A stretch of DNA of 64,000 nt, from NCBI RefSeq assembly GCF_000689395.1, contig NZ_HG966617.1, positions 3,198,721 to 3,262,720 on the forward strand, in the 5' to 3' direction. Shown piece after piece: positions 3,661-45,627 of this stretch (positions within the stretch are counted from its first letter, which is position 1; the number at the start of each line of letters is the position of its first letter). Both the position numbers and the translations under genes were made by a program. The notes below the pieces were generated by a model. That model searched no databases, was not told where the DNA came from, and saw only the letters and a list, made by a program, of their open reading frames with translations. The stretch comes from Candidatus Phaeomarinobacter ectocarpi. Its GTDB lineage: Bacteria > Pseudomonadota > Alphaproteobacteria > CGMCC-115125.

Positions 3661-4040
3661 GACTTTCGTCCTTTTCGTACTGGGGGAGCAGACGTGGTTT
3701 CCGGCGGGCAGAACATCTCGTGCAGCAGCATCACCAGCCGCTCCACACGGATATCGCTGATGCGGTAGAGCACCGACTGGGCCTCACGCCGCGTTTCAAC
3801 CATGCCGTCGTCGCGCAGCAACGCCAGATGCTGAGACAACGCCGACTGGGAAAGCCCCACGTCAGAGGCAAGCGAGCCAACCGATGCCTCCCCCACCTCA
3901 ATCAGCCGACACAGCACCAGCAAACGCCGCTCATTGGACATCGCCTTGATAAAGGCGGCGGCTTCCGCCGCCTTCGCGGCCATGTCCTGCGCCTGCCCCG
4001 TGGCCGACTGGCCGGCAGGTGCCTTTGTCGCAAAGCTCAT
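3657..4040 (-). CDS. ArsR-family persulfide-sensing repressor, BigR/SqrR-like
   Basis: 127-residue winged-helix regulator. The recognition helix lies around residues 60-75 (GLSQSALSQHLALLR), followed by the wing. Two cysteines, Cys44 in LLVLCRL and Cys111 in HEMFCPP, fall where SqrR and BigR carry their reactive pair (Cys41/Cys107 in SqrR), which forms a polysulfide bridge on exposure to sulfane sulfur and releases DNA. It is divergent from the persulfide dioxygenase and first in the operon with rhodanese and the TauE-like protein. A 10-bp inverted repeat lies between the divergent starts. Expected role: repress both directions until persulfide accumulates. Identification rests on fold, cysteine spacing and context. 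Confidence 0.88.
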   Translation of the reverse strand: MSFATKAPAGQSATGQAQDMAAKAAEAAAFIKAMSNERRLLVLCRLIEVGEASVGSLASDVGLSQSALSQHLALLRDDGMVETRREAQSVLYRISDIRVERLVMLLHEMFCPPETTSAPPVRKGRKS

Positions 4041-4050
4041 TCTGCATCCT

Positions 4051-4091
4051 TATATATTAGATATTGCTAAATTAGGGATTACTAATATATA
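4051..4091. promoter_or_regulatory. Operator of the persulfide-sensing repressor
   Basis: Perfect inverted repeat TATATATTAG (4051-4060) and CTAATATATA (4082-4091), with an extra central CTAAATTAG dyad at 4067-4075. It is strongly AT-rich against the GC-rich surroundings and sits between the divergent repressor and dioxygenase genes. Its repeated TTAG/CTAA half-sites suit a BigR-type site controlling both directions (inference). Confidence 0.7.
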
Positions 4092-4128
4092 TGTCAAGCA
4101 ACATGACCTCGAGAATGTGGAGAGCAGC

Positions 4129-5001
4129 ATGACAACGCGCCCGGACGTGCAGGCCTTCTTTGATACCCAGACCAACACGGTGAGCTATTTGGTGTCCGAG
4201 CCGGATGGCCCGGCGGCGGTTATCATCGACCCGGTCCTGGACTATGACCACGCAGGCGGCACGTTCCACACCGCCGGAGCCCAGGCGATCCTCGATGCGG
4301 CAAGCGAACGCGGCCTCAAAGTCGAGTGGATACTTGAGACCCATGCCCATGCCGACCATCTGTCCGCAGCGCCCTATCTCAAGGAAAAGACCGGCGCCCC
4401 CATCGCCATCGGCGAACACATCACCCAGGTGCAGCAGATCTTCGCACCGGTGTTTGCCGCCAAGGACGTAACCGGCACCGGGTCTGAGTTTGATCGGCTG
4501 CTGAGTGACGGCGACACGCTGACCGTCGGCGCGCTCACTGTGGACGTGATGCACACGCCCGGACACACACCCGCCTGCGTGTCGTATCGTATTGGCGGTG
4601 CGGTCTTTGTTGGCGACACGCTGTTCATGCCGGACTACGGCACGGCTCGGGCGGACTTTCCCGGCGGCGACGCCCGCGCGCTCTACACATCCATTCAGCG
4701 CATTTTGTCCTTGCCGCCGCAAACGCGCCTGTTCATGTGTCACGACTACTTGCCCGACAACGGCCGGAAGGCGCATGCGTGGGAAACCACCGTGGCCGAC
4801 CAGCGTGCCCGCAACGTGCATGTGCATGAAGGAACCAGCGAGGCTGAGTTTGTCGCCATGCGCAACAGCCGCGATGCCGGTCTGCCGGCGCCCCGGCTGT
4901 TGCTGCCATCGGTTCAGGTCAACATTCGCGCCGGGCACATGCCGCCACCGGACGACAACGGCACAACCTATCTGCGCATCCCGGTCGAGCCTGCTGCATA
5001 G
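4129..5001 (+). CDS. Persulfide dioxygenase-like MBL-fold hydrolase (ETHE1/Blh type)
   Basis: 290-residue metallo-beta-lactamase-fold protein. The motif ETHAHADHLSAAPYLK carries the HxHxDH iron ligands, and GHTPACVSY and FVGDTLF supply later ligands. This arrangement is typical of ETHE1-like persulfide dioxygenases that oxidise glutathione persulfide to sulfite. The start was placed at ATG 4129, after the operator and a GGAGAG site; an in-frame extension to 3934 would run through the divergent repressor gene and is unlikely. It is the divergent partner of the repressor-rhodanese-exporter operon, completing a sulfide detoxification module without a visible sulfide:quinone reductase in the window. 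Confidence 0.88.
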   Translation: MTTRPDVQAFFDTQTNTVSYLVSEPDGPAAVIIDPVLDYDHAGGTFHTAGAQAILDAASERGLKVEWILETHAHADHLSAAPYLKEKTGAPIAIGEHITQVQQIFAPVFAAKDVTGTGSEFDRLLSDGDTLTVGALTVDVMHTPGHTPACVSYRIGGAVFVGDTLFMPDYGTARADFPGGDARALYTSIQRILSLPPQTRLFMCHDYLPDNGRKAHAWETTVADQRARNVHVHEGTSEAEFVAMRNSRDAGLPAPRLLLPSVQVNIRAGHMPPPDDNGTTYLRIPVEPAA

Positions 5002-5058
5002 ACGGTCCCTGCCCATGCACGGGGTTGCCTGTCTCCCGCCAACTCGGTCGCGCTACCG

Positions 5059-5571
5059 TCAGGTCGCCATCTCTTGCCTGAAATCAGCGGGAATGGGGCA
5101 ATCGGTGCACACGCTGTTGTCGCACATGCGGCACAGGTGACACCGGTCCAGATCGCTGTCCGGGATTGCGGCCAGGAGCTTGTGCAGCAACGCGGCAAAT
5201 ACATCCTGCTCTTGTTCGTCCAGCGGGCTCAGCAGCTGCGCAATCGTCGCCAGACGGCCCGCGAGCAGGTCATCACACGCAGCAGTCCCTTTTTCCGTAA
5301 GAAAGAGCGCGACGGACCGCTTGTCCTTGCCTGCGCGGCGCTCGACCAACCCATCGGCCGCAAGCCGATCCACCAGCCGCACGGTGCCGGGATGGGACAG
5401 ACCCAGAATGCGCTTGAGCTGGTCGTTCGACGGCCCCGCGCCGCTTCCGATCACAATAAGGGCGGCAGGCGTTTCGCCTGCGCGGTTCATCACGTCGAGC
5501 GCGACGTTCTCGATACGGTCAGCAACGGCAAGCCCTAAAGCACCGAGCAGATTGGCGGTTCGATTCAGCAT
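5059..5571 (-). CDS. MarR-family regulator with C-terminal cysteine cluster
   Basis: 170-residue winged-helix regulator. The DNA-binding region around residues 55-110 contains LKRILGLSHPGTVRLVDRLAADGLVERR, a classical MarR helix-turn-helix and wing. The C-terminal 25 residues contain five cysteines in the pattern CxxCxxCxxxxCxxC (CHLCRMCDNSVCTDC), suggestive of a metal or redox site. The gene is divergent from an NTF2-like protein; the gap contains a perfect 19-bp palindrome that is its probable operator. Ligand unknown. The MarR assignment is firm; the sensing role of the cysteines is inference. Confidence 0.88.
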   Translation of the reverse strand: MLNRTANLLGALGLAVADRIENVALDVMNRAGETPAALIVIGSGAGPSNDQLKRILGLSHPGTVRLVDRLAADGLVERRAGKDKRSVALFLTEKGTAACDDLLAGRLATIAQLLSPLDEQEQDVFAALLHKLLAAIPDSDLDRCHLCRMCDNSVCTDCPIPADFRQEMAT

Positions 5572-43060: not shown

Positions 43061-43065
43061 AGCCC

Positions 43066-43128
43066 TTTTGCAGAGCAAAAATTGGGTATCGTTCGTTGCC
43101 GAGAGGCTTTGTATAGGCCTCTCGGCAA
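43066..43128 (+). terminator. Two hairpins at the left edge of the tRNA-Gly island
   Basis: A small stem TTTTGC/GCAAAA (43066-43080) follows the acyl-CoA dehydrogenase stop by five bases. Then comes a perfect 12-bp stem, TTGCCGAGAGGC (43096-43107) and GCCTCTCGGCAA (43117-43128), with a nine-base loop. The second lacks a U tract, so it could be a terminator for either strand, an mRNA-end structure, or a boundary remnant. It marks where base composition drops. Confidence 0.5.
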
Positions 43129-43159
43129 CACGCGAGAGACAACGCTCCGGTCGAAGACA

Positions 43160-43678
43160 ATGAAAATTGAGACGCGCACAGATGTCGCTGGAATGCGCTG
43201 CACCGCCCACTTCAGCGACGATGAAATTTATCGGTACTATCTTGAATGGCGGTGGAGTAACGATCCGTTGCTGGTTGTTTGCATGCTGAATCCTTCAACT
43301 GCCACGCATGAAATCATGGACCCCACCATTCGCGGCCTAATTCGCAGAGCCGACGCATGGCGATACGGAGGAATTGCTGTTGTGAACCTCTTCGCATATC
43401 GCTCAACTTCACCAAAAGTGATGAAAAAGGCGCCAAATCCTGTTGGACCAGACAATGATGACATGCTGGTTTGCGTTTCCGAGGCCACTGGTAACACGCT
43501 TCCGATAGTTGCGGCTTGGGGCAACCACGGCAGGTTTCAAGAGCGAGACAGCAAGGTCTTACAAATGCTCAAAAGACCATTTTCCGCCTTCGCGTCGAAC
43601 GCCAATGGGACGCCGAAACACCCGCTCTATGTACCGCGCAGTTTGCAACCGTCTGATTGGTACCGGCCCTCGCATTGA
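43160..43678 (+). CDS. DUF1643 domain protein
   Basis: 172 residues, nearly all one DUF1643 domain: VCMLNPSTATHEIMDPTIRG, AWRYGGIAVVNLFAYRSTSP, VGPDNDDML and VAAWGNHG. DUF1643 is uncharacterised and common in phages and mobile regions; the NPST and AWG motifs recall the uracil-DNA-glycosylase superfamily layout, but I cannot prove homology by eye. AT-richer than the flanking acyl-CoA dehydrogenase. It is convergent with the two-gene nucleotide-domain operon, so it may belong to the same acquired island while being separately expressed. No strong ribosome site precedes ATG 43160. Confidence 0.82.
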   Translation: MKIETRTDVAGMRCTAHFSDDEIYRYYLEWRWSNDPLLVVCMLNPSTATHEIMDPTIRGLIRRADAWRYGGIAVVNLFAYRSTSPKVMKKAPNPVGPDNDDMLVCVSEATGNTLPIVAAWGNHGRFQERDSKVLQMLKRPFSAFASNANGTPKHPLYVPRSLQPSDWYRPSH

Positions 43679-43700: not shown

Positions 43701-44450
43701 TCATGGCTTTTGCACCCATTGCTCAAATGATGGCCAAGCAAAAATCACAGCGACAATTGCGAAAGCCAGACCGAAGACGGTCGCTGCACCCATTGCAACC
43801 GCTGTAACTGTTGTCACTCTTGCTGAAAGTAGTGCGACGCGATCAGACAGCGCCTGCAAAGAATGCGTTTCACGCGCAACCTCAGAAATGAGCTTTGAGG
43901 GAATCTCAAGTTGCGCCGGAACGTTGTCCCTAGTCGTTTTCGTGTAGATAGGGTCCTCGTCGCCAACAAGGTCCGCGATCCACAAGAGGAAAAGGTCATC
44001 GCCTCTCGATAAATGAATCGGGGAAGGTCCTGCATTAAAAACTGAGTAGATTAGTTTTCCAGTGAACCCAGGATCAACGTGAAAGCCAGAAACGTTTATG
44101 AGGCCTTTGAATTTTGTTCCGGACTTCAGGGAGATAAATCCCATCGTGCTTGGAGGAATCTTGACAGTCTCTTCTGTCAACAAGAAGGCAAACTGCCCAG
44201 GCGGAATAACGAAGTCTCCTCCACGCGCTCGATACCATTTGCCGAACGCAGGCATTAAATGAGGTTGCGGGAATTCCAGTTTTTGCTTCGTATTTTTTCG
44301 CAAGTCAAACCCATGAGAAGGCGTGACATAGGCTTCAGCACCCATGCGAAGAGTGTACGCAGAGCAATCGATCTGTTTTTTCTCAAAACCATCAACTATC
44401 TGAAGTCGCGGTCCGTCATACGCTAATTTCGCACCGCTCCAGAAAGCCAT
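43701..44450 (-). CDS. dCTP-deaminase/dUTPase-fold protein with coiled coil and C-terminal membrane helix
   Basis: 249 residues. Residues about 1-165 match the trimeric dCTP deaminase/dUTPase fold: QIDCSAYTLRMG, GGDFVIPPGQFAFLLTEETV, GFISLKSGTKFKGL, SGFHVDPGFTGKLIYSVFNAG and LSRGDDLFLLW. Against E. coli Dcd, the catalytic Glu138 region (LEFYN) reads YSVFN here, and the Arg of the RSSLAR loop is Lys, so classic deamination is unlikely. Residues about 180-215 form a heptad-rich coiled coil and 215-240 a single hydrophobic helix (VAMGAATVFGLAFAIVAVIFA), unusual for this soluble enzyme family. It starts three bases after the upstream helical gene, so they form an operon. I interpret it as a membrane-tethered nucleotide sensor or effector. 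Confidence 0.85.
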   Translation of the reverse strand: MAFWSGAKLAYDGPRLQIVDGFEKKQIDCSAYTLRMGAEAYVTPSHGFDLRKNTKQKLEFPQPHLMPAFGKWYRARGGDFVIPPGQFAFLLTEETVKIPPSTMGFISLKSGTKFKGLINVSGFHVDPGFTGKLIYSVFNAGPSPIHLSRGDDLFLLWIADLVGDEDPIYTKTTRDNVPAQLEIPSKLISEVARETHSLQALSDRVALLSARVTTVTAVAMGAATVFGLAFAIVAVIFAWPSFEQWVQKP

Positions 44451-44453
44451 GAC

Positions 44454-45011
44454 TCAAAGTCTCTCTTCGAGTTTCTCGTAGAAAATAGACTTTTGCTTTA
44501 CCGGCCTAAGGCGAGCCTCAGATACTTCTTCGAAATCCCAGCCCCTATCCGCAAAGACATCCAATGCACCGCCAACAATTCTGGCCACTTGCTCAGAGAT
44601 GGTCGGGCGAAATGGAAAGTCTTCCATGTGATCCATTTTTTCACATGCACCAGCCATGCGCCCTGAGGTAATAATCAGTGTCCGGACAAAATCCGGATTT
44701 TTGCCAACAACATTACTTTTCAGAGAATCAGCAATCCGCTCATTTAGGAAATTGGACGTAGAAATTCCGATGATGAGGGCATCAGTCACAAGCCGTTTGA
44801 ACTCGGTCTCAGCTGGCTCTTCACAAAGCTCACCAGCATACTTGGCAAAATGTAATGCCATGTGCTTCAAGCGGCTCTGAATATCAAGGCGCACAATCTC
44901 GCGATGATACTTTTCATCATGCTGGAATTGTTCCCACTGCAACCGGTCAAGCATTGCAGCATCCAATCGGACGGCACTTTCTTGCGTTGCTGTGACGGCT
45001 TTCAAAGCCAT
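44454..45011 (-). CDS. All-alpha protein of unknown function, possibly MazG-like
   Basis: 185 residues, predicted almost entirely helical. The segment SRLKHMALHFAKYAGELCEE followed by EFKRLVTDALIIGISTSNFLN resembles the first helices of all-alpha NTP pyrophosphatases (MazG-like), although the standard ExxE...ExxD metal set is not cleanly present. No membrane helix. It is the first gene of the operon with the Dcd-fold membrane protein, preceded by a clear promoter and operator palindrome. GC is low: the 60 bases 44701-44760 contain only 23 G+C. Function unknown; a partner or regulator of the downstream protein is likely. Confidence 0.72.
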   Translation of the reverse strand: MALKAVTATQESAVRLDAAMLDRLQWEQFQHDEKYHREIVRLDIQSRLKHMALHFAKYAGELCEEPAETEFKRLVTDALIIGISTSNFLNERIADSLKSNVVGKNPDFVRTLIITSGRMAGACEKMDHMEDFPFRPTISEQVARIVGGALDVFADRGWDFEEVSEARLRPVKQKSIFYEKLEERL

Positions 45012-45082: not shown

Positions 45083-45119
45083 ATTATGCCATAAAGTCGT
45101 TTGGAATCAATATGATTCC
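45083..45119 (-). promoter_or_regulatory. Sigma70-like promoter with overlapping 17-bp palindrome
   Basis: On the minus strand TTGATT (45110-45105) and CATAAT (45088-45083) are spaced by 16 bp, close to the ideal housekeeping promoter. The perfect palindrome GGAATCA-ATA-TGATTCC (45103-45119) covers the -35 element, so a dimeric repressor could block the helical/Dcd-fold operon. The neighbouring double ribbon-helix-helix protein is the obvious candidate (inference). Confidence 0.65.
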
Positions 45120-45129
45120 AGTACTGCCG

Positions 45130-45456
45130 CTACATCGCATTTTCAAGCCAACGCTCGTCCAACTCCGTTCGAACTAGAATCGAAACTGCATGGTCAATCG
45201 GCAGCCCAGCGTTCTCTGCCAGGTCGCTAAGTCTCAACTTCAACTCGTCATCCAACAAGCGTGTCGTCACGCGCCTCCGGGTGCTGCTGGAAACGGTTTT
45301 AGTATACTTGATTGTTAGTGACGGAAGGCGTTTGTGTTTTAGTTCCCTGTGGATCAGCAGACTAGCAAGTGAAGAGAACGTGATCCCGAGTCCATTGACA
45401 TAGGCTTTTAGAGAATCATGTTCAACAGGCTCAAGATAGCCGCCAATTCGAACCAT
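45130..45456 (-). CDS. Double ribbon-helix-helix-like protein
   Basis: 108 residues that read as two related repeats: LEPVEHDSLKAYVNGLGITF...LASLLIHREL (about 8-40) and TTRLLDDELKLRLSDLAENA...AVSILVRTEL (about 64-100). The second fits a ribbon-helix-helix (Arc/CopG-like) unit: a short strand, then two helices split by a GLPID turn. A single chain with two such units could bind DNA as a pseudo-dimer. It lies 96 bp from the tRNA-Gly 3' end and 118 bp upstream of the nucleotide-domain operon, on the same strand. Start at ATG 45456 has GGAG five bases upstream; a longer frame to 45534 is possible. Likely autorepressor or island regulator. Confidence 0.65.
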   Translation of the reverse strand: MVRIGGYLEPVEHDSLKAYVNGLGITFSSLASLLIHRELKHKRLPSLTIKYTKTVSSSTRRRVTTRLLDDELKLRLSDLAENAGLPIDHAVSILVRTELDERWLENAM

Positions 45457-45552
45457 GACTCCAGCCCCATATTCCCCTGAAACATAGATGCAGCATAACC
45501 TGCTCGCGTAATGGCGGGCACCCCACAACTGCATATCTATCGGAGGAAAAAT

Positions 45553-45627
45553 TGGAGCGGGCGATGAGATTCGAACTCACGACCCCAACCTTGGCAAGGT
45601 TGTGCTCTACCCCTGAGCTACGCCCGC
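45553..45627 (-). tRNA. tRNA-Gly (GCC)
   Basis: Reading the minus strand, the 7-bp acceptor stem GCGGGCG (45627-45621) pairs with CGCCCGC, the D-loop contains AGCTCAGGGGTAGAGC, the anticodon loop TTGCCAA gives GCC, the T-loop is GTTCGAATC and CCA is encoded (45555-45553). The 3' end faces the AT-rich island, the usual orientation for tRNA-targeted integration. Confidence 0.95.

Follow-up and report, generated by a model that had tools for sequence, protein, structure and literature searches.

The predicted operator and the promoter of the island operon

Does a palindrome lying over the -35 element of a promoter in Candidatus Phaeomarinobacter ectocarpi act as the operator of the double ribbon-helix-helix (RHH) protein encoded beside it, and which genes would such a switch control? 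The window, meaning the whole analysed stretch of 64 kb, contains this locus in a region of lower GC content that extends from about 43.06 kb to a tRNA-Gly gene at 45553-45627 and holds four genes. The features of the region were as follows:

43160-43678, plus strand: DUF1643 protein, convergent with the cassette
43701-44450, minus strand: second controlled gene (predicted), 249 aa, dCTP-deaminase/dUTPase fold with a C-terminal hydrophobic segment (by eye)
44454-45011, minus strand: first controlled gene (predicted), 185 aa, all-alpha, probably a dimeric-dUTPase-like fold
45083-45088, minus strand: -10 hexamer CATAAT, with TG ahead of it
45103-45119, no strand: operator palindrome (predicted) GGAATCA-ATA-TGATTCC, conserved in L011, L012 and L136
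45104-45108 and 45114-45118: GANTC sites, one per operator arm, centres 10 bp apart
45105-45110, minus strand: -35 hexamer TTGATT, wholly within the palindrome, in the second half-site
45130-45456, minus strand: predicted repressor of 108 aa, a tandem (double) RHH-like protein
45553-45627, minus strand: tRNA-Gly(GCC), right edge of the island

The palindrome GGAATCAATATGATTCC was located at exactly 45103-45119 of the window, and its arms lengthen by one base each to give a perfect 8-3-8 palindrome. The -35 and -10 hexamers of the minus-strand promoter are separated by 16 bp, the -10 hexamer matches five of the six consensus positions, and the first minus-strand gene past the promoter starts at 45011. 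An earlier note had claimed that TTGATT-N16-CATAAT coincides with a perfect 17-bp palindrome, and this was confirmed, the -35 hexamer (45110-45105) falling inside 45103-45119. Taken singly, the promoter and the palindrome are unremarkable, because chance yields similar numbers: a scan of 2.8 kb gave three promoter-like sites against 2.0 expected, and the 64-kb window holds six perfect 8-3-8 palindromes against 1.4 in eight simulations. Since such sites are not rare by chance, the case must rest on comparison.

Across the 3.4-Mb genome this site was the single exact match to GGAATCA-N3-TGATTCC, so control is probably local. GANTC is nearly fourfold rarer than expected in the window (67 sites against about 250), and the pair in the operator is the sole pair at 10 or 11 bp spacing in the 64 kb. 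GANTC-N5-GANTC was found at six places in the whole genome, the operator included, in a count of the N5 spacing. In the window, the scan for sites gave no terminator-like site at the operator.

A tandem RHH-like protein encoded ahead of the predicted operator

The stop codon of the RHH gene ends 10 bp ahead of the operator on the minus strand, which places the gene upstream of the operator. The two halves of the protein were homologous by hhalign (probability 96% and E 4e-9 in local mode, 83% and E 1e-6 in global mode). The neighbouring double-RHH protein that had been claimed earlier is indeed duplicated, with two homologous halves of an RHH-like pattern. The structure model was weak (pLDDT 57) and showed a helix-helix/helix-helix pattern with no strand resolved, and fold searches with it gave no useful RHH match. 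The match to RelB_DinJ scored 16.7-17.8 bits, far under the cut-off of 45.65, and the best matches to RHH families were weak, with E-values of 0.0028 and 0.0047; the match to phrog_582 (Arc-like), a family with no stated cut-off, was at E 0.0047. No DNA-binding family in Pfam or NCBIfam matched the protein at cut-off. Because the family hits are weak and the model is poor, the assignment to the RHH superfamily is based on the repeat pattern together with the weak matches, and the repressor family is unnamed in the family libraries searched.

The sequence GAGTC lies directly ahead of the ATG of the RHH gene, at 45457-45461 of the window. The window, L011 and L012 each have a single GANTC ahead of the start codon of the RHH gene, at a distance of 5, 13 and 14 bases, respectively. 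This single site may be a weak half-site for autoregulation.

The tRNA-Gly gene marks the right edge of the island. No left attachment repeat was found in the window, so only GANTC density and base composition were used to place the left boundary, at about 43061-43150. The dCTP-deaminase-fold gene was not found in three genomes of the same genus, one of them a draft. One of the three, the sister species G003, has the 3' end of tRNA-Gly in three copies (L168, 6167-6220, 10617-10670 and from 14498), which suggests that the tRNA-Gly site is an integration hot spot with tandem islands at the same site. The DUF1643 gene recurs beside the cassette, annotated in L004 and read by eye in L011, L012 and L191. 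Among the four island proteins there were no matches with PADLOC 2.0.0 and no toxin family in Pfam, PADLOC, NCBIfam and PHROGs scans, and no conjugation genes were among the four island genes.

The palindrome in the promoters of homologous cassettes

Two homologous cassettes, L011 (a Sphingomonadales MAG) and L012 (Blastomonas natatoria), were found by a search with the 185-aa protein and not with the palindrome. Both have the gene order RHH gene, operator, 185-aa gene, dCTP-deaminase-fold gene and a convergent DUF1643-like gene, and both carry the operator GGAATCA-AGAT-TGATTCC, with TTGATT in the second half followed by TG-G-GACAAT. L136 and L137, found by a search of viral contigs with similarity to the 185-aa protein, have an identical arrangement and were counted as one locus; L136 retains part of the RHH gene as a remnant, followed by the operator GGAATCA-TCT-TGATTCC, the 185-aa gene and a second gene that is truncated. 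In each of the four distinct cassette loci having an RHH gene or its remnant (the window, L011, L012 and L136), the operator was located in the same -35 register, with TTGATT, and a TG stands ahead of the -10. The test set beforehand, whether the palindrome occurs in homologous promoters, was thus answered positively by L011, L012 and L136. In the relatives the operator lies about 100 bp ahead of the start of the 185-aa gene. The -10 hexamer matched the consensus at four of six positions in L011 and L012 and at three of six in L136, while other loci reached at most four of six and mostly at most three. The 185-aa proteins share 47-54% identity with that of the window, and the RHH proteins of L011 and L012 share 35-37%; because these identities are low, the cassette loci are not recent copies.

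In L136, positions 3743-5140 of the viral contig hold a decayed copy of the cassette in which the 185-aa gene is full-length. Its second gene has about 35 matching residues and then sequence resembling a gene further upstream in the contig.

A pair of GANTC sites at 10/11 bp was absent from the approximately 400 bp upstream in all six cassettes lacking an RHH gene (L004, L005, L007, L134, L191 and L192), and also ahead of four further relatives of the 185-aa gene (L006, L008 and the phage loci L009 and L010). The examined stretches of the six cassettes, and those of L006 and L008, contained no RHH gene. Among the records with relatives of the 185-aa protein, those examined were 5 of the 10 from plasmids and 2 of the 7 from phages. 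In L191 (989-1447, genome G713), a gene read by eye as a MerR-like regulator lies where the RHH gene would be, and because it occupies this place it suggests that the regulators of the cassette have been swapped.

A scan of viral contigs for the palindrome pattern gave at least 120 stretches; among the pattern loci listed, only L016 and L107 matched the RHH or the 185-aa protein (tblastn, 137 loci), and these are the same contigs as L136 and L137. L112, another locus with the palindrome pattern, gave a weak dCTP-deaminase-fold match. A search of viral contigs for RHH homologues found none, and tblastn with the RHH protein of L012 gave nothing from plasmids or phages at a threshold of E 0.01.

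A wider family of RHH proteins, most with a candidate operator at the 3' end of the gene

A search with three RHH proteins gave 11 matches in 9 of 397 genomes around Blastomonas. With the window included there were 12 RHH genes, 11 of them distinct (L160 is an identical copy of L158). Around the stop codon, 9 of the 11 distinct genes, the gene of the window being one of these, had one or two GANTC-N5/6-GANTC pairs. No 3' operator was found at G386c, and at L158 and its copy L160 the 3' operator was missing and a different palindrome was located before the gene itself. There were 12 GANTC pairs in 2,036 bp of 3' windows against 4 in 182,474 bp of control DNA, which was a non-random sample of 18 stretches; because the 3' windows were chosen after the first sites were known, and because one of the four control pairs (L143) is an exact palindrome of the operator type inside a reading frame, the count is a description rather than a blind test. 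As a candidate operator, this fourth G386 palindrome in L143 was taken as chance, since it lies inside a long reading frame.

The spacer between the 7-bp arms varies among loci and is 3 or 4 bp. In several loci the operator overlaps the RHH stop codon or closely follows it, and in L156 there is a 44-bp inverted repeat at the 3' end of the RHH gene. The cargo was a small helical protein, a GHEIGH protein and a dCTP deaminase in L157 and L161, a small protein and a GHELSH protein in L155, and a protein with an N6-methylase match in L158; other loci carry other cargo. The dCTP-deaminase fold thus occurs under this predicted RHH repressor family in two types of operon. By hand reading, the catalytic glutamate is kept in the dCTP deaminases of L157 and L161. 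The GHEIGH and GHELSH proteins of L157, L161 and L155 look like zinc proteases by eye, and no Pfam family matched the large GHEIGH/GHELSH protein at cut-off.

Further searches for the RHH protein covered the window's order (4 genomes), the order of G385 (396 genomes) and the class (385 genomes) and added no new genome. In the order of G385, 5 of 396 genomes matched, all previously known, and the class search returned the window's genome only; in these searches often 11 or 12 candidates were scored per genome, so that members can be missed.

The half-sites were GAATC in some loci and GACTC in others. Residue 5 of the RHH protein, in the first predicted strand, was G in all five GAATC loci and T in all four GACTC loci, and residue 62, close to where the second predicted strand begins, was R with GAATC and K or A with GACTC. 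Of 104 ungapped columns, 4 separate the GAATC from the GACTC class, a number that none of the other 125 splits reaches; the number of fixed-and-different columns is one for this split and two for one other split of the nine loci. The GAATC proteins are somewhat more alike, with 0.39 among themselves against 0.29 between the classes. Because the classes are partly kin and another split has two fixed columns, the covariation is support rather than proof.

The genes under predicted control

For the 185-aa protein, the model had a pLDDT of 74.5. Ten of the top 11 rows of the structure comparison were titled dUTPase, with Z of 8.2-10.0 for the 11 and 6.3 for the next row, and the best alignment covered 144 residues at 3.6 A; the odd one among the 11 was 5mil, from a paper on SaPI transfer. 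We take the dUTPase-titled rows to be of the dimeric all-alpha kind. Plain Foldseek on the model gave zero significant matches, and the structure-comparison tool warns that helical folds can reach Z of about 8-10 by chance; for both reasons, a dimeric-dUTPase-like fold is probable, not certain. Dimeric dUTPases have the metal-binding residues ExxE...ExxD. In the 185-aa protein this motif appears, read by hand, as HxxK...xxxD, and by hand the same form is kept in a phage relative. The metal-binding glutamates appear to be replaced. Relatives of the protein are encoded by the phages Ac42 (Straboviridae; L010) and pPa_SNUABM_DT01 (a 265-kb Pseudomonas phage; L009), and because phages encode them, the 185-aa protein may be derived from phages or exchanged with them.

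The 249-aa protein scored 67 bits against the dCTP deaminase profile, under the cut-off of 92.8. The position of the deaminase catalytic glutamate, which we take to be E138 of the E. coli enzyme, was occupied in six aligned family members by serine (n = 5) or alanine (n = 1) and by serine in the window (hand alignment), so the protein apparently has no deaminase glutamate. Some genes close to relatives bear annotations of RNR, thymidylate synthase, nucleotide kinase or base hypermodification. Both cargo proteins may be nucleotide binders rather than ordinary enzymes, and a role of the cassette in phage defence is plausible.

GANTC sites and methylation

A CcrM-type RAMA domain was detected in 9 of 9 genomes searched and, among 14 control genomes, only in Caulobacter. 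We take the RAMA domain to mark CcrM. CcrM methylates the adenine of GANTC (PMC3708114). DNA-binding proteins can keep promoter GANTC sites unmethylated, and MucR, as well as CtrA at a synthetic promoter, is reported to occlude GANTC sites (PMC5172544). Because each half-site holds a GANTC and the CcrM-type domain is present in all nine genomes, methylation could modulate the switch. A symmetric RHH box alone may also explain the GANTC, without methylation.

Proposed mechanism and alternative explanations

We consider it highly probable that the palindrome is the operator of the tandem RHH protein, which would cover the -35 element and repress the 44454-45011/43701-44450 operon. The internal duplication, the operator palindrome, the promoter overlap, the conservation and the co-occurrence are read from the sequence itself, and since the combination of repressor gene and site recurs in distant relatives, the repressor-operator switch is very probably real. 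Each RHH chain has two repeats and would form a built-in dimer. Because the chain is tandem, GANTC is nearly symmetric and the spacing of the boxes is 10 or 11 bp, or one helical turn, a pair of chains could occupy the two half-sites next to each other over the -35 element. We infer repression from the operator position, since it covers the -35, and RNA polymerase would be blocked at the promoter of the operon. Of the two products, one would be dimeric-dUTPase-like, and the other would have the dCTP-deaminase/dUTPase fold and, probably, a membrane tail. As to the trigger and the role of the cargo, we infer that the cassette would most likely be a nucleotide-sensing or nucleotide-acting accessory, probably for defence, silent until the repressor is titrated or removed.

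It is unlikely that another host regulator, such as a GANTC-linked cell-cycle factor, binds the palindrome and that the RHH gene is a mere neighbour. Both arms do contain GANTC, all nine genomes have the CcrM-type RAMA domain, and occlusion of GANTC sites by MucR, and by CtrA at a synthetic promoter, is reported (PMC5172544); but the site tracks the presence and absence of the RHH gene in the loci examined, is found again next to RHH relatives whose cargo is different, changes with residue 5 of the RHH protein, and has its exact pattern once in the genome of the window. We give the same low probability to the RHH protein being an activator, or binding just to shape the 3' end of its own transcript as a terminator or roadblock. 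The location of the operator at or near the RHH stop codon in several loci and the 44-bp inverted repeat of L156 would fit such a role, whereas the site covers the -35 in four cassette loci, a position typical of repression, and no T run directly follows the operator in the cassette loci.

The earlier note had likened the locus to toxin-antitoxin systems, and the layout and the weak RelB-like match recall such loci. That the RHH protein is an antitoxin and the 185-aa/dCTP-deaminase-fold pair its toxin, under classic type II autoregulation, nevertheless appears quite improbable, and the analogy was not upheld: the RelB score is far below cut-off, scans of the four island proteins detected no toxin family, and the operator lies behind the RHH gene, not before it. 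Six loci, moreover, have the cassette with no RHH gene in the examined stretch, one of them with a MerR-like regulator. Least probable of all, to the point of being hardly credible, is that the palindrome is due to chance; comparable perfect palindromes do arise by chance in 64 kb, but the exact arms lie over the -35 in three more loci that were found by protein similarity and are not recent copies.

Comparison with known systems

TraY of the F plasmid is a single-chain tandem RHH regulator, and Arc and MetJ are RHH repressors. The protein of the window resembles them in its two RHH-like units, in that two chains are predicted to bind, side by side, short symmetric boxes spaced by about one helical turn, and in putative repression by promoter coverage. 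It differs in that the operator lies at the 3' end of the repressor gene with half-sites built on GANTC, in that no DNA-binding family in Pfam or NCBIfam matches the protein at cut-off, and in that the four genes of the island include none for conjugation. In the SaPI islands, the repressor Stl pairs with phage dimeric and trimeric dUTPases (PMC5608427, PMC6770826). The locus resembles SaPI in having a predicted island repressor together with what are probably both dUTPase folds, and differs in that the genes with these folds belong to the island and are themselves under the predicted control, and in that its repressor is RHH-like and not Stl. A defence based on dCTP deaminase was reportedly described by Tal et al. 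in 2022. AvcID (PMC10511110) is a nucleotide-targeting defence whose component AvcD, a deoxycytidylate deaminase, is paired with an RNA antitoxin. Like these systems, the cassette encodes proteins related to deoxycytidine/deoxyuridine nucleotide enzymes; unlike them, the protein of the window has serine for glutamate and a hydrophobic tail, and PADLOC gave no match.

With MucR in Caulobacter (PMC5172544), the locus shares a repressor, here a predicted one, over GANTC sites in an alphaproteobacterial promoter. Unlike MucR, a single local operator is present in the window. To our knowledge, MucR is not an RHH protein. Our literature searches found no paper on ribbon-helix-helix with dCTP deaminase and defence, and ribbon-helix-helix with GANTC returned unrelated work only. 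By title and start of abstract, the papers on DUF1643 held nothing relevant; by title, those on tandem ribbon-helix-helix/TraY held nothing on this RHH family among the matches listed. Nothing relevant on dUTPase, dCTP deaminase, transmembrane, phage and genomic island was among the matches listed.

Biological meaning

The locus defines a predicted repressor-operator pair with a candidate recognition rule. The rule, in which GAATC or GACTC follows one strand residue, is readable and readily testable. The cassette may bring both dUTPase folds under one repressor. A further and doubtful possibility is that the operator is an epigenetic switch, in which CcrM methylation of the half-site GANTCs, which overlap the -35 hexamer, would alter RHH binding, and that the tandem RHH family guards dUTPase/dCTP-deaminase-fold defence cassettes in Alphaproteobacteria. 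If this were true, the cassette would respond to the methylation of its own locus, for instance when the DNA has just been replicated or acquired or has been disturbed by a phage, and the RHH repressor might receive feedback from the dUTPase-fold products, as Stl does from phage dUTPases. The locus is also an uncomplicated setting where a local repressor and methylation by CcrM may share the same bases.
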